From Calothrix sp. FI2-JRJ7 (GTDB lineage: Bacteria > Cyanobacteriota > Cyanobacteriia > Cyanobacteriales > Nostocaceae), in the NCBI GenBank assembly GCA_019359675.1, contig JAHHGX010000031.1, positions 124,001-188,000 of the forward strand: a stretch of 64,000 bases of DNA. The letters run 5' to 3'. The notes under the pieces are model-generated. The model saw nothing but the letters and a program-made list of their open reading frames with translations. It was not told the DNA's origin and did no database searches. The position numbers and the translations under genes were made by a program. Of this stretch, positions 1 through 64,000 are shown in pieces (the first letter of the stretch is position 1; each line of letters starts with the position of its first letter).

Positions 1-1113
1 CTCGTCCTTAATGGATGGGCGATTTCGGCAATTTTTGAGTATTTCCATTCGCTGATTGTTATTTTAGTCGGAGCATCAGTGTTAGCGTTTCTGCTTAACT
101 ATCCTGTAAGTTGGATGGAACGCCAAGGCGCCAAACGCGAACCAGTAGCTATCTTAGTATTTTTACTGGCTTTGTCAATTCTACTGGCATTAGGCGTAAC
201 GCTGATTCCACTAGCTCTAACTCAAGCTCAACAATTAGTCGCACGCATTCCAGAGTTAATAGACTCCGGACGTTCGCAATTAATGATGTTAAACGAAAAA
301 GCCGAAATTTTCGGTTTACCTCTAAACCTAGATGCATTAGTAGTACAAATCAATGACCGTGTAAAAGGACAATTACAAGCTATTGCAGGGCAAGTTCTAA
401 ACCTAGCAGTTATTACAGTTACTTCCTTGCTAGACTTCTTGCTCACAATGGTGTTGACATTTTATTTATTGCAGCATGGTGATGAACTTTGGCAAAGCTT
501 GGTCGATTGGCTTCCTGTCAGATTTCGCGAACCGTTTTCACAAACGTTACGCTCCAGCTTTGAAAATTTCTTCATTACTCAGTTAATTATCTCTACTTGT
601 ATGGCGAGTGCCTTAATTCCCACCTTTTTATGGCTAAAGGTACCCTTTGGGTTATTATTTGGCTTGACAATTGGTTTAATGGCACTTGTACCCTATGGTG
701 GTTCTGTTGGTATTGCCTTAACAACTTCTCTTGTTGCGCTGCAAGATTTTGGTATGGGGGGAAGAGTATTAATTGCAGCGGTAATCGTTCAACAAATTTT
801 GGAAAACTTGATTGCACCCCGTATTCTGGGCAGTTTTACTGGCTTAAACCCTGTTTGGCTATTAATTTCTGTTTTGACCGGAGCTAGAATCGGAGGTTTA
901 TTAGGAGTTATTTTAGCTGTTCCTAGTGCGGTAGTAGTTAAAACCGCTTTAAGTGCGTTGCGACGTGCAAGTGATACTGATGAAAGTCCCATTATTTTGT
1001 CGGAAGTAGCTGCACCCAATACAGCAAGTGACATGTCGGTGTCCACATCTAATCAAATTAGTCAATCTAATTCAACGACTTCTACGACTGTGGCGCCACA
1101 ATTGAACCCATGA
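1..1113 (+). CDS. AI-2E family transporter (PerM/YdiK-like), 5' end outside window
   Basis: Multi-pass inner-membrane protein of the AI-2E transporter family, whose members are permease-like exporters, often of unknown substrate. The frame is open from base 1 without a start, so the gene begins left of the window; the GTG at 79 is an internal codon. The visible part has several hydrophobic segments, a central soluble stretch rich in charged residues, and the family-typical C-terminal membrane block (Gly-rich GLTIGLMALVPYGG, then ILENLIAPRILG and PVWLLISVLTGARIGGLLG). The last about 45 residues are a Ser/Thr/Asn-rich hydrophilic tail. Its 3' end overlaps the convergent serpin gene by 32 bp. 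The family is clear; the substrate cannot be told from sequence. Confidence 0.85.
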   Translation, partial: LVLNGWAISAIFEYFHSLIVILVGASVLAFLLNYPVSWMERQGAKREPVAILVFLLALSILLALGVTLIPLALTQAQQLVARIPELIDSGRSQLMMLNEKAEIFGLPLNLDALVVQINDRVKGQLQAIAGQVLNLAVITVTSLLDFLLTMVLTFYLLQHGDELWQSLVDWLPVRFREPFSQTLRSSFENFFITQLIISTCMASALIPTFLWLKVPFGLLFGLTIGLMALVPYGGSVGIALTTSLVALQDFGMGGRVLIAAVIVQQILENLIAPRILGSFTGLNPVWLLISVLTGARIGGLLGVILAVPSAVVVKTALSALRRASDTDESPIILSEVAAPNTASDMSVSTSNQISQSNSTTSTTVAPQLNP

Positions 1114-2419
1114 ACAAAATGCTGCCCGTTTGATTATCGCGAATACAAGTGAAAAATGGACGGTCAACAACCATTGAAAATGGAGGGTTCATAGGGGCAG
1201 AAAGCGCGACAATGCCTACTGAAGTCGCTGCTGCTGCCTCTGTTCCTTCTTCTGATACTTCAACAAAAGTTTTATGCTTAACAGTACTAATAGCAAGATT
1301 TTTACCAATTCCCGAAAAATCGGCTTTATCGCTAAACGCTTCTCCCATACCCAACGCTGTTAAAGCATCGTTGAGTGTCACCTCGTAATCCATTTTAAAA
1401 CGAGGCAATCGAATTTCACCCTCTCGTCTCCGGAACTGTGGCATCCATTTTTCCCAGTTCTCAGAATTTAAACTTTGGTAAAACTCTTTCAAATCACCCG
1501 AATTCTCTTTCGGCAAAAATACATAAAAGCTGATTTTACCGTCTTTACCATAAGGTAAGGTTATTGCTTGAAACTTATCATTCTCTAAATACTTATAGTT
1601 CCCTCGTTGCGCCATCATCGGAGTTTGAAGAACTTGACCGGACGCTTTTGTGAAAGGTTGTTGTTTGGTTTGGCTTTTATCAAATGGCTCAGTCCAGGCG
1701 CCTTTAAAGTAAATGGCGTTAATTAAGAACATTACTTGGTCTGGACTGATTTGCTCAACAATTTTATCAATTTTACCGCGCGTCGAATCTTTAACCCAAT
1801 TATTAATCGTATTCGCGGCGCCACTGTCGGTAAAATCTAGATTTGTAACGCGCGAAGCATAAAAATCGCGGTTTCGTTGCATGAAACTTGGATTTAACGA
1901 CGCATTGCTATTAGTCCATAGCGAATTAGCAATAGTTATCTGTACTTTTGGGTCAGGATTTTCTAGAAGCGTTTTTAATGCTGCATTCGATGAATTTATT
2001 TGTTGCAAGCTCAACCCAGAATATTCTAAGGCTCTTGCCATTGCTTGCTGCGTTGTTCCTTCAGCACCGTTATAAGTCATTGCCAAAGCAAAAGCTACAC
2101 TCGAAGGCGAAACAAAAACATTGGCGCCTTCATCCTTTTTGACAACTTCTGAAAACAACTTAAAACCAAACTTAGTATTACTATTAACAAGCTTTGTATC
2201 GGGAATTACTACTTTTGACATCGGAGATTCTGTGTTAGGACGCGCGGCAACTGCACTCGACTCACTAGTTAAAGGTGAGCATCCAATCATTCCCATTAAT
2301 ACTACACCTGCTGCCGCCAATGCGTAACGTCTTCCCAAACGCACGCCGTATCGTCTTTGTAAAAACTTATTGCAACGTTGGCTCGATTTTTCCTGCATCC
2401 GCTTCCCCCTTGTGTCCAC
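1082..2419 (-). CDS. Serpin family serine protease inhibitor, predicted lipoprotein
   Basis: Serpin-fold suicide inhibitor of serine or cysteine proteases. The N-terminus has basic residues, a hydrophobic stretch and a lipobox ending GMIGC, so it is probably exported and lipid-anchored. A roughly 370-residue serpin domain follows. The reactive-centre hinge reads EEGTEAAAATS, the small-residue pattern of inhibitory serpins. Counting P15 as the hinge Gly puts Leu-Ser at P1-P1', which suggests a chymotrypsin- or elastase-like target. The C-terminal signature (DRPFF, then GSILFMGSIVAP) is intact. The ATG at 2419 is the longest start; an in-frame ATG at 2398 would give a more usual signal sequence. 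It is convergent with the AI-2E gene. The biological target is unknown. Confidence 0.93.
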   Translation of the reverse strand: MDTRGKRMQEKSSQRCNKFLQRRYGVRLGRRYALAAAGVVLMGMIGCSPLTSESSAVAARPNTESPMSKVVIPDTKLVNSNTKFGFKLFSEVVKKDEGANVFVSPSSVAFALAMTYNGAEGTTQQAMARALEYSGLSLQQINSSNAALKTLLENPDPKVQITIANSLWTNSNASLNPSFMQRNRDFYASRVTNLDFTDSGAANTINNWVKDSTRGKIDKIVEQISPDQVMFLINAIYFKGAWTEPFDKSQTKQQPFTKASGQVLQTPMMAQRGNYKYLENDKFQAITLPYGKDGKISFYVFLPKENSGDLKEFYQSLNSENWEKWMPQFRRREGEIRLPRFKMDYEVTLNDALTALGMGEAFSDKADFSGIGKNLAISTVKHKTFVEVSEEGTEAAAATSVGIVALSAPMNPPFSMVVDRPFFTCIRDNQTGSILFMGSIVAPQS

Positions 2420-2510
2420 GTCTTCATGTTTGACTATGACATCAAAACCATGCGTACACTAGGCGGTTACACTTTTAGCAACAGTTGTTTTAATCTTTCA
2501 ATGCTAAATA

Positions 2511-2548
2511 TTAATCCCCCCAAAGTTCGGGGGGTAGGGAGGGATTAA
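2511..2548 (-). terminator. G/C-rich hairpin between the serpin and the 117-aa gene
   Basis: A CCCCCC...GGGGGG hairpin with short loop, flanked by TTAAT and ATTAA, lies just past the stop of the minus-strand 117-aa gene, so it could end that transcript. It has no long U-run. A closely similar hairpin occurs at 52673-52710, so it may instead be a member of a repeat family. Confidence 0.45.
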
Positions 2549-2898
2549 ATATCTTCTAATTCTAAACGTGCGGCAGTAACTGCATCGAACGCGAAAGCTA
2601 CAATCATTGGCATTGGACATTTGAGTAAATAGGTAGAAATTACTGCTACACATGTACCAATTATCGCGGATACTGACCAGAATTTTTCGCTCTGGGTCAT
2701 TCCATTTTTTGACTTAATATTTCTTAAAATTTTTCCAGGAATTGGTTCGGGCATTACTGCTCCTGGAGGAAACGCCCAATAGTTATTTTTACGTTCACAG
2801 AACAAATCAGTCCAGCCATTTTCTTGGCACCAATCTTCGAGCCATTCATCATGGAAATGCTGTATTTTGACGCTGGGGCGGGAAGTTAGACTTAACAT
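2545..2898 (-). CDS. Hypothetical protein, two predicted membrane segments
   Basis: No family recognised. The 117-residue protein has a soluble N-terminal half with several Trp and Cys residues (DEWLEDWCQENGW), then a Pro-rich stretch (AFPPGAVMPEPIPG) and two hydrophobic segments near residues 77-110 that could form a membrane hairpin. Composition and coding quality look real, and short proteins of this layout are common in cyanobacteria. It starts with ATG at 2898 and stands alone. A G/C-rich hairpin follows its stop. Function unknown. Confidence 0.6.
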   Translation of the reverse strand: MLSLTSRPSVKIQHFHDEWLEDWCQENGWTDLFCERKNNYWAFPPGAVMPEPIPGKILRNIKSKNGMTQSEKFWSVSAIIGTCVAVISTYLLKCPMPMIVAFAFDAVTAARLELEDI

Positions 2899-3358
2899 GT
2901 TGTTTAGATTTGTGCTTGTTAGTGATTATATATGTTTGAGTAATTCGGTTTAAGTTATTCAGTTTGAGTAATTCGTTAACTTATATTACGCAGAATATTG
3001 TTTCTCGTTACTTTTCAACCATACCAGCTCCAAACAGGTCAGGCGCCAAAATGAAAATAAACTTTACCTTTGAATTATTATGTAAATATTTCGTAATAAT
3101 TACAAAAGTACACGTTCATTTATAAAAATAAAAACTGTTAAGTAAACCTTAAAAGGGCGGTAATTTGTTATTGAATAGTTCGGTGTTCCGCAGAGCATTA
3201 ATACTAATAATGAAAACAGAATAAAAGGAATTAATAGATTATTAATTATTAAATTAAATGATTGAGTGTCAATATGCATATGGGTATAGAAATTGGGATA
3301 GTGACACAATTCGCGGTAAGCTGAAAATAGCGGTAATCTTCTCTTGGTATTACTTAAT
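2899..3358. other. AT-rich intergenic stretch
   Basis: 460 bases with no convincing gene on either strand. Near 2931-2975 the phrase GTTTGAGTAATTCG occurs twice in direct orientation. The open frame at 3100-3309 (minus) is AT-rich with no recognisable protein features. The segment probably holds the promoters of the flanking divergent genes, but no clear -10/-35 pair could be fixed. Confidence 0.5.
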
Positions 3359-3868
3359 ATGTGGCGCCTCCTAAACGCTTACAAAACAGCGGTGGTTATT
3401 TTGGTCGTGATTGTAGCTTGTGTAGTATTTGTGCCGAGCAGCGCTATTGCCGATTGGACGCACCCGATGTCATTTAGCAACGCGGAATTGTCGAGAAAAG
3501 ATTTTTCTGGGCAAGAATTACAAGCATGTGAGTTTTCTAACGCCAATATGGAGTTAGCAAATTTTAGTAATGCTGATTTACGTGGGGCAGTAATGAGTGC
3601 TTCGGTGATGACATTAGCCAATTTGCAGGCAGCTAATCTATCAAATGCACTAGTAGATCAGGTAGACTTAACAGGGGCAGACTTAAGTGATGCAATATTG
3701 CAAGAAGCGCTGCTGCTTCGTACCACGTTCAAAAACGTGAATATAAATGGTGCTGATTTTACTGATGCAATATTGGATGGGGCACAGGTTAAAGAACTGT
3801 GTAGCATCGCTCGTGGAGTAAATAAACAGACAGGTATTAAAACTCGTGATTCGCTAGGGTGCAGATGA
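3359..3868 (+). CDS. Exported pentapeptide-repeat protein
   Basis: A signal peptide or N-terminal anchor (hydrophobic from about residue 8 to 28, ending SSAIA) is followed by about 90 residues of A(D/N)LXX-type pentapeptide repeats (for example ANFSNADLRGAV, DLTGADLSDAIL, NGADFTDAILDGA). Such repeats fold as a right-handed quadrilateral beta-helix; in cyanobacteria they are abundant, often lumenal or periplasmic, and mostly of unknown role. I chose ATG 3359; a TTG five codons upstream (3344) is also possible. The stop overlaps the purK start as ATGA, so the two are probably translationally coupled, though no functional link is known. Confidence 0.8.
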   Translation: MWRLLNAYKTAVVILVVIVACVVFVPSSAIADWTHPMSFSNAELSRKDFSGQELQACEFSNANMELANFSNADLRGAVMSASVMTLANLQAANLSNALVDQVDLTGADLSDAILQEALLLRTTFKNVNINGADFTDAILDGAQVKELCSIARGVNKQTGIKTRDSLGCR

Positions 3869-5127
3869 AACGTATAGGTGTAATTGGTGGTGGACAGCTC
3901 GCTTGGATGATGGGAGGGGCAGCTTCCAAGCTTGGTTTAGAACTAGTTGTACAAACTCCGAGTGCTTCTGACCCTGCTGTTGCGCTCTTGCACAGCAATG
4001 GTTTTCATAAAAGCAAACCGGAGCAGTATTTAATCGATGAACCGCAGCAAAAACTGTTTGCAATTACCGAGACTCCTGTAAAAGAGCCTGTTAATTTTGT
4101 ACAAGCGCGCATTGATGATGCTGTCGCTACCGTACAACTGGCTAAAAACAGTGATGTCATTACTTTTGAAAACGAATTCGTTGACTTAGAGGCGTTATCT
4201 ACTTTAGCCGAACGTGGCGTTTGTTTTCGTCCCAAGCTAGAAGCACTTGCTCCTCTTTTAGATAAGTATCATCAACGGTGCTATTTACGCGATATTGGTT
4301 TACCAGTACCATCATTTACCGCCTTCGATGTCACTAACCGTAACCTAGGCGCCGTTTTTAATTTTAATTTTCCTGTGGTCTTAAAAGCTCGTCGTCATGG
4401 CTACGACGGTCAAGGCACATACATCATTAAGAATAATAATCATTTTCAAACAGTTATCAACCAGCTTGAAAATGGACGGTTCAAAGCTAGTAACACCGAG
4501 TTTCTACTTGAAGAGTTTGTACCCTTCAAATACGAACTCGCTGTTATTGCGGCTCGCTCAATCGATGGCGAAGTTGTCATCTATCCAGTGGTAGAAACTC
4601 AACAGGAACAACAAGTTTGTCGGCGTGCAATTGTACCAGCCGATATTTCTCGTGAAGTTACCGCCAAAATTGAAGATGTCGCGAAAACTCTCCTCAACAG
4701 TCTTGATGCGGTTGGAGTTTTTGGCATAGAACTATTCCTGACAGTAGATGACAATGTTTTAATTAATGAAGTGGCGCCACGTACCCATAATTCGGGACAT
4801 TTTTCAATCGATGCATGTCAAACTTCACAATTTGAGCAGCATTTACGGGCAGTATGTGGACTCCCACTAGGCAGTACAGCCTTAATTAGTCCCGGCGCCG
4901 TTATGGTAAACTTGCTCGGTTACGAAAATTCGTTGTCTGATTACTTTGAAAAGCGCGAGATTTTGTCGCGTATAGAAAATGCCCACCTTCATTGGTACGG
5001 TAAAACCGAATCTCGTCCGGGTCGCAAACTCGGACACGTGACTATATTATTAGACAACCCCAGTCGAGATGGCGCCATATTAGCTGCGCGTCAAGTTGAA
5101 TCAGTTTGGTATCCAAATCAAAACTGA
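3865..5127 (+). CDS. purK: 5-(carboxyamino)imidazole ribonucleotide synthase
   Basis: PurK is an ATP-grasp enzyme that carboxylates AIR with bicarbonate and ATP to N5-CAIR in purine synthesis. The N-terminal dinucleotide-type fold starts RIGVIGGGQLAWMM. The ATP-grasp core follows (VVLKARRHGYDGQGT, ELAVIAARS, then NEVAPRTHNSGHFSIDAC with the metal- and substrate-binding residues). At 421 residues it is longer than the E. coli enzyme (about 355); extra residues sit near 50-85. The ATG at 3865 overlaps the upstream stop, preferred over GTG 3859. The 6S RNA gene lies immediately downstream, an arrangement known in cyanobacteria. Confidence 0.96.
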   Translation: MKRIGVIGGGQLAWMMGGAASKLGLELVVQTPSASDPAVALLHSNGFHKSKPEQYLIDEPQQKLFAITETPVKEPVNFVQARIDDAVATVQLAKNSDVITFENEFVDLEALSTLAERGVCFRPKLEALAPLLDKYHQRCYLRDIGLPVPSFTAFDVTNRNLGAVFNFNFPVVLKARRHGYDGQGTYIIKNNNHFQTVINQLENGRFKASNTEFLLEEFVPFKYELAVIAARSIDGEVVIYPVVETQQEQQVCRRAIVPADISREVTAKIEDVAKTLLNSLDAVGVFGIELFLTVDDNVLINEVAPRTHNSGHFSIDACQTSQFEQHLRAVCGLPLGSTALISPGAVMVNLLGYENSLSDYFEKREILSRIENAHLHWYGKTESRPGRKLGHVTILLDNPSRDGAILAARQVESVWYPNQN

Positions 5128-5160
5128 AATACAAAGAAATAAAGAAAAATCCTGTAATGA

Positions 5161-5189
5161 TGCACAACTGTATTTTTGGAGGCTATAAT
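5161..5189 (+). promoter_or_regulatory. Putative promoter of the 6S RNA gene
   Basis: A perfect TATAAT at 5184-5189 lies about 10 bases before the predicted 6S RNA start. The -35 region around 5161-5166 (TGCACA) is only a weak match. Position and the quality of the -10 box support a sigma-70-type promoter independent of purK. Confidence 0.6.
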
Positions 5190-5196
5190 AGGGTTG

Positions 5197-5378
5197 TTGT
5201 ACTGCAACGTTGGTGACTGCCATCAAGTTTTTTGATCTATGTCTTTAAGAATTCGGGAACCGATTATTGTTCGTGGCAGTAGACCGAGCTTGTACTCGGA
5301 AACTTTAAACGAAACACAAGGCTCCCACCTGGTTATACCAGGTCATAAACTTAGGTAAAACGGCGTCGCGGTATGATA
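5197..5378 (+). ncRNA. ssrS: 6S RNA
   Basis: 6S RNA binds the housekeeping RNA polymerase holoenzyme by mimicking an open promoter and down-regulates it in stationary phase. Evidence here: location just downstream of purK, as in other cyanobacteria; a size of about 180 nt; and a closing stem in which 5199-5210 (GTACTGCAACGT) pairs with 5363-5374 (GCGTCGCGGTAT) with one mismatch and a few G-U pairs. Inner helices include GACCGAGCTTGTACTCGG around 5283 and CACCTGG/CCAGG near 5327-5342, with a large unpaired middle region expected for the promoter-mimic bubble. A TATAAT box precedes it and a terminator hairpin follows. Exact ends are estimates. Confidence 0.8.
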
Positions 5379-5386
5379 AAATAATC

Positions 5387-5428
5387 AGCTCCTGAAGTCT
5401 TTTCGACACAGGAGCTTTCACTTTTTTA
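5387..5428 (+). terminator. Rho-independent terminator after 6S RNA
   Basis: An 8-bp stem AGCTCCTG (5387-5394) / CAGGAGCT (5409-5416) with a 14-nt loop is followed by TTCAC and a run of six T (5422-5427). Its position fits the end of the 6S RNA transcript. Confidence 0.8.
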
Positions 5429-5493
5429 AGAAACCGGGTTTTTTTAAGAGATTAAGTTTTTTCGCGAAATATAAAATTAGAAACCCGGTTTCT
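5428..5493. repeat. 66-bp element bounded by AAACCCGGTTT palindromes
   Basis: Two copies of an imperfect AGAAACC(C/G)GGTTTCT palindrome, at about 5428-5442 and 5479-5493, bound an AT-rich core. The same spacing (66 bp end to end) recurs at 12409-12474, and a shorter diverged pair is at 15825-15857. This looks like a small dispersed intergenic repeat. Confidence 0.7.
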
Positions 5494-5649
5494 AGGATGG
5501 TTATTATATCACAAATAATACGTTTTGCTTTTTCAAATAAATTTGTATAAATTGCATCGAAATGGTGACACATTCAGAGCTACAATCAGTAGAATTGTAA
5601 GAAATTGTGATTACAATTACAAAAAATATTACAACCATCAATAAATACA

Positions 5650-6921
5650 GTGTTTCCAGCCTCAATATTCAAACTGGACAGCGGCTTAACTTTGATACAT
5701 CAAGAAATACCTACGACACCCGTAGTTGTGGCAGATGTTTGGGTTAGTGCAGGTAGTATATCGGAACCTTCTTCCGGGTTCGGAATGGCACATTTTCTAG
5801 AGCATATGATATTCAAAGGTACAGCCAAAGTACCTGCTGGAGTCTTTGACTATAATATCGAAAACCAAGGTGGTGTCAGTAACGCAGCGACAAGTTACGA
5901 CTACGCACATTATTCGATTACCTCCACCAACTCATATTTACACTCCTCTTTTCCACAGCTAGCAGAAATGCTGTTAAATGCGGCAATTCCCGACGACGAA
6001 TTAGAGCGAGAACGTGATGTTGTATTAGAAGAGATTCGGTCTTATAATGATGACCCCGATTGGGTAGGGTATCAGCATTTAGTCCAGAGTATTTACCAAC
6101 AACACCCCTACGGACGTTCTATTTTAGGTAACGAAACCGATATTGAACAGCATTCTAGCTCTGATATACGCTCGTTTCACCGCACTTATTACCGACCAGA
6201 AAATATGACCGTGGTAATCGTCGGTGGAATTCCTGTTGCACCGGCTTTAGAATTAGTTAAAAACACTTTTAAATCAGATAATTTTCAATCCATATCTGAT
6301 AACGATAATAATTTTAATTTAACGACAAGAGAAAAAATTGTTGAACCATTTATAGCAGGAATTAGGCGTCAAGAAATCAACTTACCACGTTTAGAAAATG
6401 CACGTCTAATGATGGCATGGACTGGGCCAGGAGTATATGATCTAACAACAGCATGTGGATTAGACTTATTATCAGTATTGTTAGCATCTGGTAGAACATC
6501 ACGGTTAGTAAGAGACTTGCGCGAAGAACAGCAATTAGTTCGTTATATATGCTGCAATTTCTCGCTGCAAAAAGAATCTAGTTTATTTACAATTAGTGCA
6601 GTTTTAGAGCCAGAATGTTTAGAACGAGTCGAAACCGCAATTAAAATGCATTTGCAAGATATTATTACAAATGGGATTAGTGAACAAGAATTGAGACGCG
6701 CTCAAAGATTACTGTGCAACGACTTTGCCTTTTCAACCGAAACACCAAATCAACTAGCAGGACTTTACGGTTATTACAACACAATTACTGATGTCGAGTT
6801 AGCAGTAACTTATCCTGACCAAATTTTATCATTTAATACCCAAGAACTGCAACAATTAGCGTTCTTATATCTTTCGCCAAATCAATACGCGGTAACTACG
6901 CTTAAACCATCAACGATTTAA
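5650..6921 (+). CDS. M16 family zinc peptidase, catalytic subunit type
   Basis: Processing-peptidase-like metalloprotease (M16B). The inverted zinc motif HxxEH is present as H48-F-L-E51-H52 in GMAHFLEHMIFKGT, and the third ligand is expected at E127 or E128 in VVLEEIRSY, about 76 residues on. Two M16 half-domains fill the 423 residues, the usual size. The start is GTG 5650 without an obvious Shine-Dalgarno sequence. The next gene, 5 bp downstream, is a second M16 protein that lacks the zinc motif, so the two probably form an active/inactive heterodimer as in other bacterial M16B pairs. No signal peptide is seen, so it is probably cytoplasmic. Substrate unknown. Confidence 0.92.
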   Translation: MFPASIFKLDSGLTLIHQEIPTTPVVVADVWVSAGSISEPSSGFGMAHFLEHMIFKGTAKVPAGVFDYNIENQGGVSNAATSYDYAHYSITSTNSYLHSSFPQLAEMLLNAAIPDDELERERDVVLEEIRSYNDDPDWVGYQHLVQSIYQQHPYGRSILGNETDIEQHSSSDIRSFHRTYYRPENMTVVIVGGIPVAPALELVKNTFKSDNFQSISDNDNNFNLTTREKIVEPFIAGIRRQEINLPRLENARLMMAWTGPGVYDLTTACGLDLLSVLLASGRTSRLVRDLREEQQLVRYICCNFSLQKESSLFTISAVLEPECLERVETAIKMHLQDIITNGISEQELRRAQRLLCNDFAFSTETPNQLAGLYGYYNTITDVELAVTYPDQILSFNTQELQQLAFLYLSPNQYAVTTLKPSTI

Positions 6922-6926
6922 TTAAA

Positions 6927-8201: not shown

Positions 8202-8253
8202 TCAACGCTTAATAATTGTACTATTAGTATACAGACACCGGGGGCAAATTCCA

Positions 8254-9390: not shown

Positions 9391-9420
9391 TATGTTTTAA
9401 AGCCCTAAATTGTCATTGTG

Positions 9421-17504: not shown

Positions 17505-17950
17505 GGCGCTACTCTTGTAAATTGATTTAATAATGGGCAGGGATTGTGTTAACCGATAGAAACCCTGTATTAAGCAGTTCCAAATTCGGTTGGAAACTTA
17601 AAAAAGGAAATCTAAGTATAAATACCGCTTCGGTATAGAGCAGTTGGTCTTTCAGAACTTTTATAGTTATTAATTTGAGTTAAGGTACTTTATTTTGAGG
17701 TTTGGTCGCAATCATCTAAAGTTAGATTAAAAGTAACGAACTCAACAAGTTTATTTTTTAAGCTTTTGTATTAATGATTGTAACATTTATTAAAAAGGTT
17801 TGGCTAGTCATTTTTGATATATTTTTGGGCGTTTCAGCTTGCACCCAGAAAAAAATTATACCATAAATGTTAATTAATTTACTTATATTGGTTCATAAAA
17901 AATTAATGGGAATCATAAAGAAATGTAAAAAATTCTCAGGATAGAGAATG
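17505..17950. other. Long upstream region of the sigma factor gene
   Basis: About 450 AT-rich bases with no gene. It presumably carries the promoter and 5' untranslated region of the sigma factor. Runs of A/T and short T-stretches are present, but I could not identify a specific operator or riboswitch. Confidence 0.5.
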
Positions 17951-18110
17951 TTGTCTGGTGCGTGACGCCTTTAAACTGGCGCTTCGTTTAGAGATAGTTG
18001 TCTGGTGCGTGACGCCTTTAAACTAGCGCTTCGTTTAGAGATAGTTGTCTGGTGCGTGACGCCTTTAAACTAGCGCTTCGTTTAGAGATAGTTGGTAGCG
18101 TCACGCACCC
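17951..18110. repeat. Three tandem 47-bp repeats closed by an inverted GGTGCGTGACGC arm
   Basis: Units at 17951-17997, 17998-18044 and 18045-18091 are nearly identical (one G/A difference), each containing GGTGCGTGACGC. They are followed by GCGTCACGCACC at 18098-18109, complementary to that core, so any unit can pair with the 3' arm. The stop codon of carB (minus strand) lies just beyond at 18115, so the array sits directly downstream of carB. Confidence 0.85.
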
Positions 18111-32057: not shown

Positions 32058-32117
32058 GGTGCGTGAAAGCTATTACAATCTTCAATCAAATGAAATATTA
32101 AACTGCTTTCACGCACC
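32058..32117. repeat. GGTGCGTGAAAGC inverted repeat after malQ
   Basis: GGTGCGTGAAAGC (32058-32070) pairs perfectly with GCTTTCACGCACC (32105-32117) around a 34-nt loop. It is a variant of the GGTGCGTGACGC/GCGTCACGCACC family with matched changes in both arms, and may end the malQ transcript. Confidence 0.8.
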
Positions 32118-32698
32118 ATCAATTCTTTTAGATTATACGGACAGGCGCCAATCAAAAAAGCACCATCAAAACAAGTGCTGGTAAGAAGTTGATGCGTGAC
32201 GCTACCGGGTTATCGCTTACAATCTTCAATCACCATCAATTCTTTTAGATTATACGGACAGGCGCCAATCAAAAAGCACCATCAAAATAAGTGCTGGTGA
32301 GAAGTTGGTGCGTGACGCTACCGGGTTATCGCTTACAATCTTCAATCACCATCAATTCCTTTTAGATTATACGGACAGGCGCCAATCAAAAAAGCACCAT
32401 CAAAACAAGTGCTGGTGAGAAGTTGGTGCGTGACGCTACCAGGTTATCGCTTACAATCTTCAATCACCATCAATTCTTTTAGATTATACGGACAGGCGCC
32501 AATCAAAAAAGCACCATCAAAACAAGTGCTGGTAAGAAGTTGATGCGTGACGCTACCGGGTTATCGCTTACAATCTTCAATCACCATCAATTCTTTTAGA
32601 TTATACGGACAGGCGCCAATCAAAAAAGCACCATCAAAACAAGTGCTGGTGAGAAGTTGGTGCGTGACGCTACCAGGTTATCGCTTCGTTTGAGAGTT
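32114..32698. repeat. Five tandem copies of a ~117-bp repeat
   Basis: Units begin CACCATCAATTC at 32114, 32231, 32347, 32465 and 32582, giving periods of 117, 116, 118 and 117. Each unit holds one GGCGCC, an AGCACCATCA...GTGCTGGT segment and a (G/A)TGCGTGACGCTACC core. One- or two-base differences (GTAAGAAGTTGATG versus GTGAGAAGTTGGTG) alternate between units, so copies have been exchanged or expanded recently. Copy-length changes of one base rule out a coding role. The array ends with GGTAGCGTCACACACCCTAC at 32702-32721, the same 3' module as at 18094-18112. Confidence 0.9.
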
Positions 32699-51878: not shown

Positions 51879-51893
51879 CAACGTAAAATTGCC

Positions 51894-55700: not shown

Positions 55701-55872
55701 GGGAATAGGTAGATGGAGATTCGGAGTCAATTTCTAGTTTCTTACTCGAATGACCGCTTCACTGTTCTTATGAAACAGTTTTTTCTTCTTACATCGTATT
55801 ATTCTCACTTTTTCTCGTGCAACGTCGATGCGGGAGCGGTCAACTCAGTGTAACCCCTGACACACTATTCCG

Positions 55873-57238: not shown

Positions 57239-57940
57239 GTGCGCTTTGATATAGTTACGCTGTTTCCAGACTGTTTTACCTCAGTTCTCAACTCAGGACT
57301 GTTGGGTAAAGCCTTAGCCAAACAGATTGCCCAAGTCAATTTGGTTAACCCACGCGACTTTACTAACGATAAGCATCGTAAAGTCGATGACGAACCTTAC
57401 GGTGGTGGTGTCGGGATGCTCATGAAGCCCGAACCCATTTTTGCCGCCGTTGAGTCGCTGCCAATTCTACCGCGAAGAGAGGTCATATTGATGAGTCCTC
57501 AAGGACAAACCATCAATCAACCTTTGTTACGAGAGCTAGCAATTAACTATGACCAGCTAATAGTCATATGCGGACATTACGAGGGTATTGATGAGCGAGT
57601 ACAACAAATTGTTACCCGTGAGGTTTCCCTTGGAGATTTTATTTTAACCGGTGGTGAAATTCCTGCAATGGCATTAATCAACGGCATCACCCGCTTGCTT
57701 CCTGGCACCGTTGCCAAAGTCGAGTCTATTAAATACGAAAGTTTTGAGGAAAATCTCCTCGACTACCCCCAATATACTCGCCCCGCCAACTTTCGTGGTT
57801 GGAAAGTCCCCAATGTCCTCCTTAGCGGCAATCATAAAGAAATTGCTAAGTGGCGCCTATCCCAACAAATCGAACGTACTAAGGCACGGCGCCCCGACCT
57901 ACTCAAAGCTTGGGAAGAACAACAAAACCAAGAGAGTTAG
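57239..57940 (+). CDS. trmD: tRNA (guanine37-N1)-methyltransferase
   Basis: TrmD methylates G37 next to the anticodon to prevent frameshifts. 233 residues with the SPOUT trefoil-knot motifs: DEPYGGGVGMLMKPEPIF, VILMSPQGQTINQPL, VICGHYEGIDERVQQIV and SLGDFILTGGEIPAMALING. The C-terminal helical domain is present (AKWRLSQQIERTKARRPDLL). GTG start at 57239 (MRFDIVTLFP, the conserved beginning). Followed by repeats, then ispF. Confidence 0.96.
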   Translation: MRFDIVTLFPDCFTSVLNSGLLGKALAKQIAQVNLVNPRDFTNDKHRKVDDEPYGGGVGMLMKPEPIFAAVESLPILPRREVILMSPQGQTINQPLLRELAINYDQLIVICGHYEGIDERVQQIVTREVSLGDFILTGGEIPAMALINGITRLLPGTVAKVESIKYESFEENLLDYPQYTRPANFRGWKVPNVLLSGNHKEIAKWRLSQQIERTKARRPDLLKAWEEQQNQES

Positions 57941-57945
57941 GAGTT

Positions 57946-57973
57946 GTACAGACACGATTAATCGTGTCTGTAC
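57946..57973. repeat. 28-bp perfect palindrome after trmD
   Basis: GTACAGACACGATT followed by its exact complement AATCGTGTCTGTAC. It has the same length and general outline (GTA-C/G-AGAC at the ends) as the other three 28-bp palindromes. It starts 5 bp after the trmD stop and may serve as terminator. Confidence 0.8.
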
Positions 57974-57974
57974 G

Positions 57975-58112
57975 AGTTTATGAGTTAATTAGTTAATGAG
58001 TTAAGGATAAAAATTAATTCTTAATTCCTAACTCAATACTCAATACTCGTAAGGTGCGTGACGCTACTAGTTCATTAGTTTCACTTTGCGATTGTTATGG
58101 CGTCACGCACCC
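57975..58112. repeat. STRR-like repeats and a GGTGCGTGACGC inverted pair
   Basis: GAGTTAATTAGTTAATGAGT-type and TAACTCAATACTCAATACTC-type phrases are followed by GGTGCGTGACGC (58053-58064) and its complement GCGTCACGCACC (58100-58111) with a 35-nt loop. This ends 25 bp upstream of the ispF start and is a third locus of the GGTGCGTGACGC family (others at 17951-18110 and 32058-32721). Confidence 0.8.
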
Positions 58113-58136
58113 TACTCCTAACTCTTAACTATTTCC

Positions 58137-58619
58137 ATGTCTATTCGTATTGGTAACGGCTACGATATTCATCGCTTAACTACTGGGCGCCGTCTTATAC
58201 TCGGTGGCGTTGAAATTGACCACGAACTCGGTTTACTTGGACATAGCGATGCAGATGTACTAACTCATGCAATAATGGACGCGATGTTAGGCGCCTTATC
58301 TTTAGGTGACATCGGACACTATTTTCCACCAACAGATCAAAAATGGGCAGGCGCCGATAGTTTAGTTTTGTTAAGCCAAGTAAATCAATTAATACTAGAT
58401 AAAGGTTGGAAAATTGGCAACATCGACTCAGTAGTAGTAGCAGAACGTCCAAAACTAAAACCTCACATCGAAAAAATGCGCGACAAAATAGCAGGAGTCT
58501 TGCAACTAGAACCAACACAAATAGGCATTAAAGCTACTACTAATGAAAAACTAGGCCCAGTTGGACGCGAAGAAGGAATTTGCGCCTACGCAGTAGTTTT
58601 ATTAGAAAAAGCAAATTAA
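58137..58619 (+). CDS. ispF: 2-C-methyl-D-erythritol 2,4-cyclodiphosphate synthase
   Basis: IspF makes MEcPP in the MEP isoprenoid pathway, which feeds carotenoids, chlorophyll tail and quinones. 160 residues, standard length, with zinc ligands Asp and His in [10 protein letters not shown] and the active site [20 protein letters not shown]. The C-terminal [18 protein letters not shown] is conserved. ATG 58137. Separated from trmD by repeats, so probably its own transcript. Confidence 0.97.
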
Positions 58620-58637
58620 TAAATGCTCTTATCTTGT

Positions 58638-58751
58638 ATCTTGTGGAGCGGGCATCCTTGCCCGCCCTTAATATAAAACTAGATAACTTTGATATAGAAC
58701 TGCAATACTACCCTTAGCATGGGACGGGCAAGGATGCCCATCCCACAACAG
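58638..58751. repeat. Inverted repeat of the TTGTGGA...GGGCATC family
   Basis: CTTGTGGAGCGGGCATCCTT at the left (58638-58657) is complementary to AAGGATGCCCATCCCACAA at the right (58733-58751), with GCCCGCC and GGACGGGC extending the stem; about 114 bp in all. It is the most complete copy of the family also seen at 25206-25240 and 52640-52661. Confidence 0.8.
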
Positions 58752-58815
58752 TTGTAATTTAATTTAACATGTAAGTTAAATGCCCAACTTACACAAATCA
58801 AGCTAATTAAATATT

Positions 58816-59352
58816 ATGTATGACTGGATGCGGAAAGAGACTTACTCAGAGTCTTTCATCGATGGTAAAGAACATTTAGCAATGTTAGTAACAAACTTAA
58901 GAGACATAGAACTTCCTGACCTGATTGCTTTAGACAAAGACGAAAATGTTATACTTGTTGCCGAAGTAACAAGTAAAGCAGATGGCTTTAAAAACTCGGA
59001 TACTAGAAAATATGCGCTTTTAAGGCTTATAGATGTCTTAGAATTTGCAACAAAAAACACTATTCCTTTTGTAATGCTTGCTGATAAGGAAAATATTGAG
59101 TTTTTTCGCTGGGACGGTCAAAAATTGTCTGAGCCTATTTTAAGTTTAAATACAGCGGATGTACTTAGCCGTTATGAGCCTAGCTTTGAAGACAAAAGTA
59201 TATATGATAGATATCTTGTAACTTTGATAGAATCTTGGCTACGAGATTTAGGGTATAATTGGAATTCAGAAACACCACCGAATTCAAAAGAAATGCAAGA
59301 AATAGGTTTTTTGCAACTAATTCAAGGCGGAATGACTAAGGCATATTATTAA
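58816..59352 (+). CDS. Putative PD-(D/E)XK nuclease-fold protein
   Basis: 178 residues, no named family. The pattern P34-D35 ... E50-V-T-S-K54 in LPDLIALDKDENVILVAEVT fits a divergent PD-(D/E)XK active site, with predicted beta strands around it; a helical C-terminus follows (YDRYLVTLIESWLRDLGYN). If correct it would be a nuclease or inactive DNA-binding relative. ATG 58816. It ends 3 bp before the PIN-like gene, so the two form a tight operon, which is reminiscent of toxin-antitoxin or defence pairs; that is inference only. Confidence 0.65.
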   Translation: MYDWMRKETYSESFIDGKEHLAMLVTNLRDIELPDLIALDKDENVILVAEVTSKADGFKNSDTRKYALLRLIDVLEFATKNTIPFVMLADKENIEFFRWDGQKLSEPILSLNTADVLSRYEPSFEDKSIYDRYLVTLIESWLRDLGYNWNSETPPNSKEMQEIGFLQLIQGGMTKAYY

Positions 59353-59355
59353 AAG

Positions 59356-59967
59356 TTGAAAGTGATACTATACATTGAGACTAATTTTATAATGAGTCTT
59401 GCGAAGGGACAGGATATTGAAGCCCAAGACTTACTATTCAATACACCAGCATCTATTTCTATAGTAATACCCAGTATTTGTTTTTTAGAAGCTCATACGA
59501 CATGGCAACAAGCACAGAAAAAGAACGAAGATTTTATTAGTAAAGTAGACATTCAAATTAGCGAATCATTGCAAGATAAAACTTCAATAAATGCTCAATT
59601 TACAGCTTCTAGACTAGACAAGTCAAAAAGTAGTTTTGAAGGTAGGATAAGTGATATTAAAAAACGTTTTGATTTAACATGTAATGAACTTGCAAGTAAA
59701 GCTGAAGAAATACCCTTAGAATTTGCTACAATTCAAGAAAGTCTAGCAAGGGGTATTTTAGAAGATAAACACTTAGTTGATAAAATAATACTAGAATGCA
59801 TTATTCGACACGCACGTTTGCATCCTGATATCACAAAAGTTTTTCTAAGCGCTAATACTAAAGAGTTTGGTCAACAGCAAGTTACTCAATTTTTACAGGA
59901 TACTGCTATTAGATATTTCAGCAAAACAACAAATTTTTTAGGTTGGTTGCAAGCACAAAACTCTTAA
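59356..59967 (+). CDS. PIN-like domain protein
   Basis: 203 residues with the outline of a PIN ribonuclease: first acidic residue in LYIETNFIMSLA (Glu instead of the usual Asp), second in PSICFLEAHTTW, others in LEDKHLVDKIILECIIRHA, and the terminal strand VFLSANTKEFG. PIN proteins are metal-dependent RNases, often toxins. The middle (about 60-120) is a helical insertion. TTG 59356 or GTG 59362 are the only starts; both lie within 10 bp of the upstream stop. Its last 29 codons are duplicated at 60110-60204. Confidence 0.68.
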   Translation: MKVILYIETNFIMSLAKGQDIEAQDLLFNTPASISIVIPSICFLEAHTTWQQAQKKNEDFISKVDIQISESLQDKTSINAQFTASRLDKSKSSFEGRISDIKKRFDLTCNELASKAEEIPLEFATIQESLARGILEDKHLVDKIILECIIRHARLHPDITKVFLSANTKEFGQQQVTQFLQDTAIRYFSKTTNFLGWLQAQNS

Positions 59968-60109
59968 ATTATAAATGTAACGATGACTCAATAACAATCA
60001 AGTTTTAAGAACGCGATATACTTTTTTATGCAGGATTGGATAGACCGTAAAAATAAACTCCTAACTGTTCCTGCTCTTCAAAATAGAGAACACTTTACGT
60101 AATTTAGTA

Positions 60110-60204
60110 AGCGCGAAGTTGCACAGTTATTACAAGATAATGGTATTAGATATTTCAGCAAAACCACAAATTTTCTAGGTTGGTTACAAGCGCAAAACCC
60201 CTAA
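60110..60204 (+). pseudogene. Duplicated 3' end of the PIN-like gene
   Basis: This segment encodes EVAQLLQDNGIRYFSKTTNF then LGWLQAQNP and a stop, nearly the same as the PIN-like protein end (QVTQFLQDTAIRYFSKTTNF, LGWLQAQNS). Upstream, HFT-stop-FSKRE may be a decayed continuation. There is no start codon. It is a remnant of a second, otherwise lost copy of the gene or of a neighbouring paralogue. The rest of 59968-60346 shows nothing else recognisable. Confidence 0.82.
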
Positions 60205-60346
60205 ACTGTAGGTAAGGCGCCTCCATCTCCATGTCGAAATCAAAAAATTTGCTATGATAATTGCCACAAACAGTGTATCTACGGAATTAATTTACTAACT
60301 AAGTAGATATACTCATATCATTTCAGCATCGGAATTCTATATATGT

Positions 60347-62149
60347 ATGAATATGGCTATTTTGACCCGAATATTGACCAAAATATTAAAATTAAAGCGC
60401 ACTTGGATTATTGGGTTAGTTGGGGTGTTCGTTACCCTGTCCCTGAATGCTTGTAACCCAGCAGGACTGAAAACGAGTGCAGCGCAAACGAATCAACTTG
60501 TTATAAGTATCCTTAGTGACCCAAAAACTTTTAACTACGCACTTAGTAACGAATCTCCCAATATATTTGGGTTGACTTTTGAAGGACTTGTTACTCAAGA
60601 CCCGTTTACAGGTGAAATTCAACCTGATTTAGCTGAATCTTGGCAAATTTCATCAGATAAGCTCAAAATTGTTTTTACGATGCGTGAGGGGTTGAAGTGG
60701 TCGGATGGTAAACCCCTAACTGTTGATGATGTTGTTTTTACCTTTAATGATATTTATCTCAACGAAGCAATTCCTACTGACGCGCGCGATGTTCTCAGGG
60801 TTGGCGCCAAAGGTTTATTACCTAGCGTGCGTAAGCTGGATGAACGACGTGTAGAATTTATTACTCCTGAACCATTTAGCCCTTTTCTTGGTGTAACAGG
60901 TTTACCGCTTCTACCAGCTCATGCACTACGTCCATTTATCCAAACTAAAGATTCTGAAGGAAAACCCATATTCCTCTCGAAGTGGGACGTTGATACTCCT
61001 CCAGACCAAATTATAGTTAACGGCCCTTACAAACTTGCCAGATATAATACGGGTGAACGGATTATATTTACCCCTAACCCTTACTACTGGCGTAAAGATG
61101 CCAAAGGTCAACAACAGCCATATATAGAAAGAGTCATTTGGCAAATTGTTGAGTCAACCGATACTGGTTTAATTCAGTTTCGTTCGGGTGGGCTTGATAA
61201 TGTCGCTGTAACACCTGATTATTTCTCGCTGTTGAAAGCTCAAGAAGACCAAGGTAAATTTAAAATTTACAATGGTGGACCTGCGGCAAGCACAACGTTT
61301 ATGATGTTTAACCTTAACAAAGGCAAACGTAACGGTGTACCGCTTGTTAACCCTGTAAAGTCACGCTGGTTTAATACAGTTGAATTTCGTCAAGCTGTTG
61401 CCTATGCCATCGATAGACAAACAATGATAAATAATATCTATCGAGGATTGGGAGAACCCCAAGATTCTCCACTTTATGCAAAAAGTCCTTACTATTTATC
61501 ACCTAGTGAAGGACTTAAAGTTTATAACTACAGTCCTGAACGCGCGCGACAGTTGCTTACCAAAGCTGGCTTTAAATACGATAATCGCGGACAGTTACTT
61601 GATTCTGATGGCAACCGCGTCCGGTTTACATTACTTACAAACGCAGGAAATAAAATCCGCGAAGCAATGGGAGCGCAAATTAAACAAGACTTAGAAAAAG
61701 TCGGCATTACGGTTGACTTTACCCCTGTAGCTTGGAGTGCTTTCTTAGATAAACTTGATAATAATCTTGACTGGGATGCAGGAATGATTGGTTTTGGCGC
61801 CGATTTTGAGCCAAACTCCAGCGCTAACTTGTGGACTCCAGATGGTGGTTCACACATGTTTAACTTAAAACCACGCGCGGGAGCAAAACCAATAGAAGGA
61901 CGAGTTGTTTATCCTTGGGAAGCAAAAATTGGTGAACTATATGTAAAAGCTGCACAAGAATTTGACCAAGCAAAACGTAAAGCAATTTACGCTGAGTCAC
62001 AACAACTTGCACAGGAATATTTACCTTTAATTCACTTAGTTAACCCCTACTCACTATCTGCTGTACGCGATAAATTTGTAGGAATTAAACACTCTGCAAC
62101 AGGTGGTTCCTTCTGGAATATCCACGATATTAAAGTCAAACAATCTTAA
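60347..62149 (+). CDS. Peptide/oligopeptide-type ABC transporter substrate-binding lipoprotein
   Basis: 600-residue SBP_bac_5 family protein. The N-terminus is a lipoprotein signal ending LSLNAC. The mature protein shows the family segments PDLAESWQISSDKLKIVFTM then REGLKWSDGKPLTVDDVVFT, and FRQAVAYAIDRQTMINNIYR. It captures peptides or other solutes for an importer whose permease and ATPase genes are not here. ATG 60347 (another ATG two codons on). A truncated, diverged copy follows directly downstream. Confidence 0.93.
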   Translation: MNMAILTRILTKILKLKRTWIIGLVGVFVTLSLNACNPAGLKTSAAQTNQLVISILSDPKTFNYALSNESPNIFGLTFEGLVTQDPFTGEIQPDLAESWQISSDKLKIVFTMREGLKWSDGKPLTVDDVVFTFNDIYLNEAIPTDARDVLRVGAKGLLPSVRKLDERRVEFITPEPFSPFLGVTGLPLLPAHALRPFIQTKDSEGKPIFLSKWDVDTPPDQIIVNGPYKLARYNTGERIIFTPNPYYWRKDAKGQQQPYIERVIWQIVESTDTGLIQFRSGGLDNVAVTPDYFSLLKAQEDQGKFKIYNGGPAASTTFMMFNLNKGKRNGVPLVNPVKSRWFNTVEFRQAVAYAIDRQTMINNIYRGLGEPQDSPLYAKSPYYLSPSEGLKVYNYSPERARQLLTKAGFKYDNRGQLLDSDGNRVRFTLLTNAGNKIREAMGAQIKQDLEKVGITVDFTPVAWSAFLDKLDNNLDWDAGMIGFGADFEPNSSANLWTPDGGSHMFNLKPRAGAKPIEGRVVYPWEAKIGELYVKAAQEFDQAKRKAIYAESQQLAQEYLPLIHLVNPYSLSAVRDKFVGIKHSATGGSFWNIHDIKVKQS

Positions 62150-62283
62150 TAAGTAAGGTGGGCAGTGCCCACCCTACAATTTTAATTAAGGCAAACCACA
62201 AGTACCAATAGCAACACTAGTAAAAGTAGCAGTAGGAAGTGGCAGGGCAGGACTAAACGTACCAGTATTAGTTGACAACACTC

Positions 62284-62966
62284 TTGATATTCAAAGTCCG
62301 TATTATTTATCACCTCAAAAAGGTTTAAAAGTCTACGAGTACAATCCAGAAAAGGCGAAGAAATTACTTTTAGATGCTGGATTTAATTATGATGCTAAAA
62401 ACCAGTTAGTCGATGCTTCAGGAAATCGTGTGCGTTTTACGTTGAATACAAACGTGGAAAATAAAACTCGTGTGACAATGGCAGCACAAATCAAGGGTGA
62501 TTTAGCTAAAATTGGTATACAGGTAGACGCAAATCCTATTTCTTTTAATACGCTTGTTGATAAACTAAATAATGGGCTTGATTGGGAATGTTACCTTCTT
62601 GGCTTTACTGGTTCGCTTGAGCCTAACGATGGCGCCAATAAATGGATACCAGATGGCAACTCGCATTCATTCAATCAAAAGCCACAGCGAGGACAGTCAC
62701 AGTTAATGGGTAGAAAAGTGAATGATTGGGAAGAAGAAATTGGGCGCCTATATATCGAAGCAGCACAAGAATTAGACGACAATAAACGTAAGCAAATTTA
62801 CGGAAAAACTCAACAGATAACGCAGGAATATTTACCTGAGATTTACTTAGTAACTCCATTATCTTTGGTAGCAGTCAGGAACCGTATTCAAAATGTGAAA
62901 TTTTCTGCCCTTGGCGCCCAAGGTGGAACATTATGGAATAAGTATGAATTAATAGTAAAAGAATAA
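62284..62966 (+). pseudogene. 5'-truncated copy of the substrate-binding protein gene
   Basis: From about 62284 the frame reads IQSPYYLSPQKGLKVYEYNP, EKAKKLLLDAGFNYDAKNQL, then the rest of the SBP_bac_5 C-terminal third through GTLWNKYELIVKE at 62966. It aligns with residues about 380-600 of the preceding gene (AKSPYYLSPSEGLKVYNYSP) at clearly less than full identity. The first about 380 residues and the signal sequence are missing. The frame stays open back to about 62192 with unrelated sequence. Intact reading frame but no lipoprotein signal: a relic or, less likely, a short soluble protein from GTG 62430. Confidence 0.82.
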
Positions 62967-62970
62967 TTAA

Positions 62971-63759
62971 ATGACAAATGACCAAAATTTGCGCTACCTT
63001 CTCGAATCTGTAGCGAATGGTAGCCTTTCTACCGATACCGCATTCGATAAACTCAAAGATTTAGCATACGAACCTGTTGGAGAATTTGCCAAAATAGACC
63101 ATCATCGGGAACTCAGAACAGGTTTTCCGGAAGTTATTTGGGGACAGGGCAAAACTCCAGAGCAAATTGCCCAAATAATGAATGTAATGCGTCAGCGTAA
63201 CCCTGTAGTTATGGCAACACGCATTTCATCGGATGTATATCAATTATTGCAGCCTAAAGTTAGAGAACTGCGCTATTACGAAATGGCGAGAATTTGCGCC
63301 ATTACTCCCGATACAATAGAACCGAAATATCACGGTACTATTGGTATTATTTCTGCTGGCACTGCTGATTTACCAATTGCTGAAGAAGCTGCCGTGACTG
63401 CTGAACTTTGCGGTTTTCGTGTGCAGCGACTATGGGATGTTGGTGTTGCTGGTATTCACCGTTTACTTAATAACCGTCACGTTATTGAATCCGCTTCTGT
63501 GTTAATTGTTGTTGCTGGTATGGAAGGCGCCTTACCTAGCGTTGTAGCAGGTCTCGCTGACTGTCCTGTAATTGCCGTGCCTACTAGTATTGGTTATGGC
63601 GCCAGTTTTAGTGGACTGGCGCCACTGTTAACGATGTTAAATTCGTGTGCAGCAGGTATTGGAGTTGTAAATATTGATAATGGCTTTGGTTCTGCTGTAC
63701 TAGCTGGACAAATTTTACGAACAGCCGAGAAATTGCGGTTGGCGCCTCAAGAGTGTTGA
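62971..63759 (+). CDS. larB: Nickel pincer cofactor biosynthesis protein LarB
   Basis: LarB carboxylates and hydrolyses nicotinic acid adenine dinucleotide, the first step to the nickel-pincer cofactor of lactate racemase-type enzymes. 262 residues: N-terminal helical part, then the PurE-like AIR-carboxylase fold (GTIGIISAGTADLPIAEEAA, IVVAGMEGALPSVVAGL, IAVPTSIGYGASFSGLAPLL). ATG 62971, four bases after the stop of the preceding remnant, so it may be cotranscribed with the binding protein. larC and larE are not visible. LarB occurs in many cyanobacteria without an obvious lar operon. Confidence 0.93.
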   Translation: MTNDQNLRYLLESVANGSLSTDTAFDKLKDLAYEPVGEFAKIDHHRELRTGFPEVIWGQGKTPEQIAQIMNVMRQRNPVVMATRISSDVYQLLQPKVRELRYYEMARICAITPDTIEPKYHGTIGIISAGTADLPIAEEAAVTAELCGFRVQRLWDVGVAGIHRLLNNRHVIESASVLIVVAGMEGALPSVVAGLADCPVIAVPTSIGYGASFSGLAPLLTMLNSCAAGIGVVNIDNGFGSAVLAGQILRTAEKLRLAPQEC

Positions 63760-63763
63760 GGTT

Positions 63764-63889
63764 ATGACTGTATTTTATTCACAAATACGGTCGGTAAACT
63801 TTAAGATGGTACGTTTTTTAACAAAAAATTGGGTAATTTTAGCTGCTTTCGCTCTCAGCTTTGTACTGACTGTCAGTATTTCTGCTTAG
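63764..63889 (+). CDS. Possible small membrane protein
   Basis: A 41-codon frame from ATG 63764 to TAG 63889 (also startable at ATG 63806, 27 residues) encodes a short polar start, then MVRFLTKNWVILAAFALSFV and LTVSISA, a single membrane-spanning helix preceded by basic residues. Only 4 bp separate it from the larB stop. Such short hydrophobic frames can arise by chance, so this is tentative. The remaining 110 bases to the window edge show nothing recognisable. Confidence 0.4.
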   Translation: MTVFYSQIRSVNFKMVRFLTKNWVILAAFALSFVLTVSISA

Positions 63890-64000
63890 GGTGGTTTTTG
63901 TAGTGGACATTACCTGCGTATTCAGGTTATGACAGGTTTGTCATTATTTAATTTGTATTTTAATACACAGGCGTTTTGGCCTGTACCACAAGAGAGCTTA

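Follow-up and report, generated by a model that had tools for sequence, protein, structure and literature searches.

GGCGCC in the window and in the genus

In all seven sampled genomes of the cyanobacterial genus Dulcicalothrix/Calothrix, the hexamer GGCGCC replaces the highly iterated palindrome HIP1 (GCGATCGC); it is an element of an already described kind. The analysis is centred on a stretch of 64,000 nucleotides of Calothrix sp. FI2-JRJ7 (assembly GCA_019359675.1, contig JAHHGX010000031.1, positions 124,001 to 188,000), referred to here as the window. According to our reading, to which we assign a probability of about 0.7, GGCGCC serves the genus as its alternate highly iterated palindrome (HIP), is methylated by an orphan enzyme, and is useful to the cell. 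New here is GGCGCC as a mark of the whole sampled genus, tied to a solitary methyltransferase.

The window (positions 1..64000, 39.6% GC) contains exactly 119 copies of GGCGCC, about one per 538 bases, compared with 3.84 expected from composition, and no copy of HIP1. The initial annotation, made by a model from the letters of the window, had given about 119 copies versus about 4 expected and had not seen the HIP1 octamer; both statements are correct. The sites extend from 127..132 (followed by sites at 1092 and 1697) to 63741..63746 (preceded by sites at 63598 and 63618), and successive 8-kb segments hold 13, 16, 12, 17, 18, 17, 9, and 17 of them. Among longer words, TGGCGCCA occurs 21 times, AGGCGCCT 15 times, and CGGCGCCG seven times. 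A maximum-order Markov model predicts 59 copies in the window (observed/expected ratio (O/E) 2.0, z 7.7, the top z among the scored hexamers). This model was dropped as the main yardstick because subwords of GGCGCC inflate its expectation: GGCGC and GCGCC are mostly pieces of GGCGCC, and in 464 kb of the FI2-JRJ7 genome GGCGC runs on into GGCGCC in 825 of 920 cases. Over composition, the O/E of GGCGCC in these 464 kb is 31.4, followed among palindromes by CGCGCG (7.3) and GCGCGC (5.1), while GATC (0.10) and GGCC (0.16) are depleted. Other GC-only palindromes are nearly missing from the window (CCGCGG, GGGCCC, CCCGGG, and CGGCCG zero copies each, GCCGGC one). Equal enrichment of other GC-rich hexamers, which the initial annotation had named as evidence against a switched motif, was thus not found, although CGCGCG and GCGCGC are raised. 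The whole genome (8,663,394 bases in 91 contigs) contains 14,889 copies of GGCGCC versus eight of the reversed control CCGCGG, and 31 copies of HIP1, about the level expected from composition. The suggested genome-wide excess is therefore present in these counts, but measured strictly against the Markov expectation it is only twofold in the window.

The survey covered 217 genomes of the family, seven of them from the genus: FI2-JRJ7 itself, Dulcicalothrix desertica PCC 7102, Calothrix PCC 7103, Calothrix PCC 7716, HK-06, NIES-4105, and a Calothrix metagenome-assembled genome (MAG). All seven carry 1,150–1,719 copies of GGCGCC and 3.6–22.6 copies of HIP1 per Mb. In contrast, median counts per Mb in the 210 others of the family are 3.7 for GGCGCC (maximum 111) and 803 for HIP1. 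Over composition, the O/E of GGCGCC is 20.5–33.4 in five relatives, and the seventh genome is equally dense by count. Aligned identity to FI2-JRJ7 drops to 0.83 within this set (Calothrix MAG, 19 kb aligned). The proposal that GGCGCC is used instead of HIP1 therefore holds genome-wide in FI2-JRJ7 and in each genome of the genus. GGCGCC has the properties of a HIP, that is, a GC-rich palindrome far above composition with approximately 1,000–2,000 copies per Mb and a low HIP1 count, whereas those of HIP1 itself are absent: HIP1 is at background level in FI2-JRJ7, and a presumed M.Ssp6803I-type enzyme was found by search in none of the seven genomes. GATC has an O/E of 0.07–0.24 in six genus genomes, and this depletion may explain the loss of HIP1.

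Outside the genus, genome G182 (3.2 Mb) has almost no HIP1 (9 per Mb), yet no gain of GGCGCC. Three further genomes, G194 (genus g49) and G184 and G191 (g47), have 50–104 HIP1 and 0.1–30.5 GGCGCC per Mb and may also have lost their HIP or adopted a different alternate word. When 388 genomes of the order were scanned for a second switch to GGCGCC, G377 ranked first among those whose reversed control was low (532 per Mb, reversed control 13). This candidate was rejected, as 20 kb of its sequence had 50% GC, 39 copies of HIP1, and only eight of GGCGCC (O/E 1.6). Raised counts were also found in G224 (402 per Mb), G252, G274, G398, and G346; in G273, G327, and G399 the reversed controls are high, so that composition may explain the GGCGCC counts. 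In a separate observation, 60 kb of genome G116 (contig C1, 100001-160000, L107-L109) contain 45 copies of ATTGCAAT (O/E 28), together with HIP1.

Coding context

Genes were taken as simple open reading frame calls of at least 100 amino acids. In 335 kb of PCC 7102, the codons GGC-GCC spell 285 of 681 glycine–alanine (Gly-Ala) pairs, whereas codon use predicts 17.7 (16-fold excess); in the window together with another 200 kb of FI2-JRJ7 and 340 kb of PCC 7716, the proportion is 484 of 919. The chance that base composition, codon preferences, or an abundance of Gly-Ala dipeptides alone yields the GGCGCC count is negligible. In favor of such an origin, the Gly-Ala frame holds 57% of the coding sites (285 of 498), but the remaining two frames hold 93 and 120, and non-coding DNA of PCC 7102 is likewise enriched (1.20 per kb versus 1.84 per kb in coding DNA). 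Across 20 synonymous codon shuffles of the same 335 kb, the count averaged 33.6 and never exceeded 46, versus 498 observed, which we count as refuting this explanation, and the other genomes of the family reach a median of only 3.7 copies per Mb.

A solitary GRCGYC-type methyltransferase

All seven genus genomes encode a 5-methylcytosine (m5C) methyltransferase that is predicted to recognise GGCGCC. In FI2-JRJ7, the gene (L002/P0001) is located outside the window on contig C79 and is one of nine PF00145 matches, fragments among them. Relatives with 81–98% identity are present in all six other genus genomes; the match in the Calothrix MAG was flagged with a TGA, yet a 327-aa frame is open there. 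The 313-aa protein matches a PADLOC type II model (E 2.5e-140) and is 54.6% identical to a hindVM-annotated gene on an E. coli plasmid. HindV recognises GRCGYC, and the homology together with the linked nuclease of relatives points to GRCGYC as the specificity of the genus enzyme, of which GGCGCC should be one of four target words. The other three are depleted in the 464 kb of FI2-JRJ7 (O/E 0.05–0.39). The solitary methyltransferase suggested by the initial annotation is therefore present as an orphan enzyme in seven of seven genomes, but it would match GGCGCC only as one of the four targets of its family.

In 38 of the 39 other family genomes that have both genes, the methyltransferase and a HindVP-family nuclease lie within 500 bp of each other. 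The nuclease (PF09519) was detected in 43 of the 210 others, in some as fragments, and in none of the seven genus genomes; of the two parts of a HindV-type restriction–modification system, the genus has the methyltransferase without the cognate nuclease. The locus is constant in the six genomes examined (all but HK-06), with the methyltransferase between an SLH-domain-like gene and one resembling RuBisCO (names assigned by eye) and two small extra genes interposed in NIES-4105. The SLH-domain-like neighbor in FI2-JRJ7 (contig C79, 134921-135439) is a 172-aa open frame, compared with 681–685 aa in five relatives. The genus methyltransferases form one clade (support 100/99) in a tree for which a motif filter removed 13 of 30 fetched loci and retained all seven genus rows. 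The ratio of nonsynonymous to synonymous substitution rates is 0.05–0.17 over 21 genus pairs, indicating purifying selection. With no nuclease, a shared locus, and this constraint, the solitary enzyme looks like a leftover of an old restriction system. A second copy (L001, 61% identical) is located on a 31.8-kb contig of FI2-JRJ7, and additional second copies, some fragmentary, occur in PCC 7103, HK-06, NIES-4105, and PCC 7716, those of NIES-4105 on contigs matching plasmid records. Methyltransferases were clustered with a 50% cut-off, at which one locus (L197) was dropped; a first run at 42% had lost 16 loci to a motif filter and merged groups.

Across the family, the 39 genomes with both genes have a median of 0.71 GGCGCC per Mb compared with 5.07 in the 151 that carry neither (p 1.7e-6), while the 16 genomes with the methyltransferase only (median 8.5 per Mb) are indistinguishable from the latter (p 0.35). 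A different m5C methyltransferase of HIP1-rich family genomes (nine members, one cluster), which we take to be the M.Ssp6803I orthologue, was searched in the 217 genomes (E 1e-80) and was present in 203 of the 210 others and in none of the seven from the genus. A truncated m5C methyltransferase of FI2-JRJ7 (L007/P0003, contig C89, 72815-73231), which ends at 139 aa compared with 413 aa in PCC 7102 and HK-06, was rejected as a possible remnant of the HIP1 enzyme; its relatives occur in 36 of the 210 others and six of the seven genus genomes and do not track HIP1.

Decay, retention, and spacing of the sites

Losses and gains were counted over about 106 kb of syntenic sequence from four genomes that are 93–94% identical, with places having the word in two of the four excluded (17 in the listed part). 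All four genomes retained GGCGCC at 124 places; at 53 a single genome had lost it, and at seven a single genome had gained it. Among the 53 losses, 36 were C-to-T changes at the third position (C3>T), five were C6>T, and none was C5>T. The fraction of C3>T at the tips was 0.110 versus 0.056 at other GCG cytosines (p 0.004), and changes at C3 were directed 27:2, compared with 1119:868 at cytosines elsewhere (p 3e-5). Because C3>T dominates the recent losses, in line with a methylated C3, the methylated base is probably C3 (GGm5CGCC, both strands), and sites probably decay by deamination.

Despite this decay, the sites persist. In 65 kb aligned among PCC 7102, PCC 7716, PCC 7103, and NIES-4105, 112, 101, and 99 of the 120 PCC 7102 sites are kept in the latter three, respectively, while the identity of all hexamers falls from 0.770 to 0.723 and 0.478; C3>T differences (7, 15, and 8) show no steady rise with distance. 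Synonymous retention was determined where the amino acids are identical, with the expectation taken from other spellings of those residues. GGCGCC was retained in 78 of 89 cases in NIES-4105 (45.6 expected), 20 of 27 in the Calothrix MAG (9.5), 301 of 317 in PCC 7716 (237.1), 259 of 301 in PCC 7103 (223.1), and 140 of 154 in FI2-JRJ7 (111.9). By z, it ranked 1 of 2516 words in PCC 7716, 4 of 2415 in PCC 7103, and 3 of 296 in NIES-4105. GGCGCC sites therefore outlast synonymous spellings, and because C3 nevertheless decays about twice as fast as other GCG cytosines, something maintains them.

On a large scale, the gaps between sites are near random (coefficient of variation 0.93–1.05). At short range, only 44 pairs lie 6–50 bp apart in 604 kb versus 83.8 expected, the lowest ratio among 114 words of similar count (median 1.24), of which the two next-lowest overlap GGCGCC. 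Likewise, the fraction of Gly-Ala pairs written as GGCGCC is 0.29 when a further site lies no more than 50 bp away and 0.56 otherwise (p 2e-8). The avoidance is evident up to about 50 bp and has become faint by 100 bp; for HIP1 it was not seen (12 pairs below 50 bp versus 13.2 expected in 400 kb of five relatives). A gene-stratified version of the test (21 versus 50.3 expected) is not relied on, because a site cannot neighbor itself and the test is biased. Short-range avoidance would fit a saturating local mark or a bound protein and not a process acting on each single site.

Possible explanations

The sequence comparisons suggest a selected role of GGCGCC, and a methylated site that is useful to the cell is the most likely reading. 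Under this reading, a restriction system would have been disarmed while its methyltransferase was retained, and the genome would have been rewritten around that enzyme. The methylated word might serve strand discrimination in repair or act as a chromosome or uptake mark, so that loss of sites would be disfavored; the effect would saturate locally, leaving little value in another site less than about 50 bp away. A more specific version can be offered only tentatively: GGCGCC may mark the chromosome under selection and follow a spacing rule, in which one methylatable site per half kilobase is held against m5C decay, a second within about 50 bp is discounted, and the methyltransferase of the disarmed system became a housekeeping enzyme in the ancestor of the genus. 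If so, the genus is a natural replacement experiment for HIP1 function. Several results weigh against a useful methylated mark. Recent losses far outnumber gains, which are hardly seen, and the density may now be falling; this excess suits neither selection nor biased repair well. Purging of young losses was not significant (C3 changes at tips versus the internal branch 29:1 compared with 1987:270 elsewhere, p 0.25). By effect size, synonymous retention of GGCGCC ranked only 22 of 2516 in PCC 7716, 172 of 2415 in PCC 7103, and 6 of 296 in NIES-4105, and in the avoidance test its odds ratio was undercut by 10 of the 543 control codon-pair words. The 16 of 210 other genomes with the methyltransferase and no nuclease have 0.3–43 GGCGCC per Mb; the enzyme alone is therefore insufficient. 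Similarly, the 7 of 210 others that lack the family m5C methyltransferase retain HIP1 at 384–969 per Mb, and its loss alone is therefore insufficient as well.

Selection on the word is preferred, and biased repair is its main rival. In the ratchet proposed by Elhai (2015; PMC4390886), G-methyl-C directs mismatch repair and thereby biases it toward GGCGCC, and the abundance of a functionless word is a by-product. The model requires methylation of the internal C, which the C3>T spectrum supports; the density of 1.15–1.72 per kb is close to the proposed saturation of about 1 per kb; and GGCGCC is preferred to GACGTC, GGCGTC, and GACGCC, as predicted. However, losses exceed gains 53 to 7, and the avoidance spans about 50 bp and has faded by 100 bp instead of reaching to near 1 kb; we regard the ratchet as rather unlikely. 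An explanation based on very-short-patch repair, in which a Vsr-type nuclease turns the T:G mismatch in GGTGCC into GGCGCC and the word accumulates, draws on the fact that such repair skews word counts in other organisms. Vsr (PF03852) was found in none of the seven genus genomes and in 5 of 14 control genomes, the most frequent change runs the opposite way (C3>T), and GGTGCC/GGCACC is not depleted (O/E 1.0–2.0 in six genomes); enrichment by Vsr is highly improbable and was rejected given its absence from the genus genomes searched. Methylated GGCGCC could also tag the cell's own DNA for natural transformation or self-recognition, and in density and presence within and between genes the sites resemble uptake sequences. 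In Synechocystis, M.Ssp6803I-methylated plasmid DNA raised transformation 11- to 161-fold according to a study citing other work (PMC6604393). An uptake mark does not obviously predict short-range avoidance, though, and we consider it quite unlikely.

Relation to known systems

The novelty implied by the initial annotation does not stand: in Elhai (2015; PMC4390886), GGCGCC is already named as the alternate HIP of Calothrix PCC 7103, a member of the same genus group, with two predicted GRCGYC methyltransferases. The word, the genus, the near absence of HIP1, and the type of enzyme agree with our results. That report covers one strain and 19 kb of another, whereas all seven genus genomes are covered here; the orphan enzyme at one locus (six of six examined) and the evolutionary data bearing on which base is methylated, on site retention, and on short-range avoidance go beyond it. 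A search by title, with subscription literature mostly outside its reach, found no further paper on GGCGCC as a cyanobacterial palindrome. The alternate HIPs GCSGC (Cyanothece PCC 7822) and RCCGGY (Oscillatoria PCC 10802) likewise combine low HIP1, another GC-rich word at high count, and a predicted matching methyltransferase, but each is reported from one genome (PMC4390886), in contrast to the genus-wide GGCGCC. Like HIP1 with M.Ssp6803I, GGCGCC is a GC-rich palindrome at about 1 per kb; word and enzyme differ, and short-range avoidance was seen for GGCGCC but not for HIP1 in the 400 kb of relatives. The C of CGATCG in Synechocystis is m5C (PMC6604393); within HIP1 this base stands in a G-C-G context, which a methylated C3 of GGCGCC would share. 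A HindV-type system shares the methyltransferase, but the genus lacks a detectable nuclease in all seven genomes, and, far from being avoided, one of its four target words is present in great excess.

The genus has exchanged both word and enzyme and has held to the exchange across about 17% divergence in aligned DNA, a swap that separates effects of the HIP1 letters from those of any GC-rich palindrome that is methylated and occurs about once per kb. Elhai (2015; PMC4390886) argued that alternate HIPs are sporadic and, unlike HIP1, do not persist in clades; the genus-wide occurrence of GGCGCC weakens this argument of clade persistence for HIP1 alone. It also comes with evolutionary support for the methylated base that his model needed but was unable to place.

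Other features

A 117-bp tandem repeat with 4.9 copies is located at 32114..32686; its consensus unit contains one GGCGCC inside AGGCGCCA, and some sites there therefore arose by duplication. The consensus units of this repeat and of a 47-bp tandem repeat (17942-18094) have GGTGCGTGACGC in common. The window further includes a 6S RNA (5196-5378; Rfam RF00013, 103 bits) and a serpin gene (1082-2419; PF00079, E 2.5e-122). CCGCGG, CCATGG, and GTCGAC are among several palindromes with zero copies in the 464 kb of FI2-JRJ7. CGCGCG is over-represented as well, with an O/E of 6–15 in these 464 kb and in stretches of PCC 7102, PCC 7103, NIES-4105 (the highest), the Calothrix MAG, and PCC 7716, and it is well conserved between PCC 7102 and NIES-4105 (20 of 26 sites, 9.4 expected).

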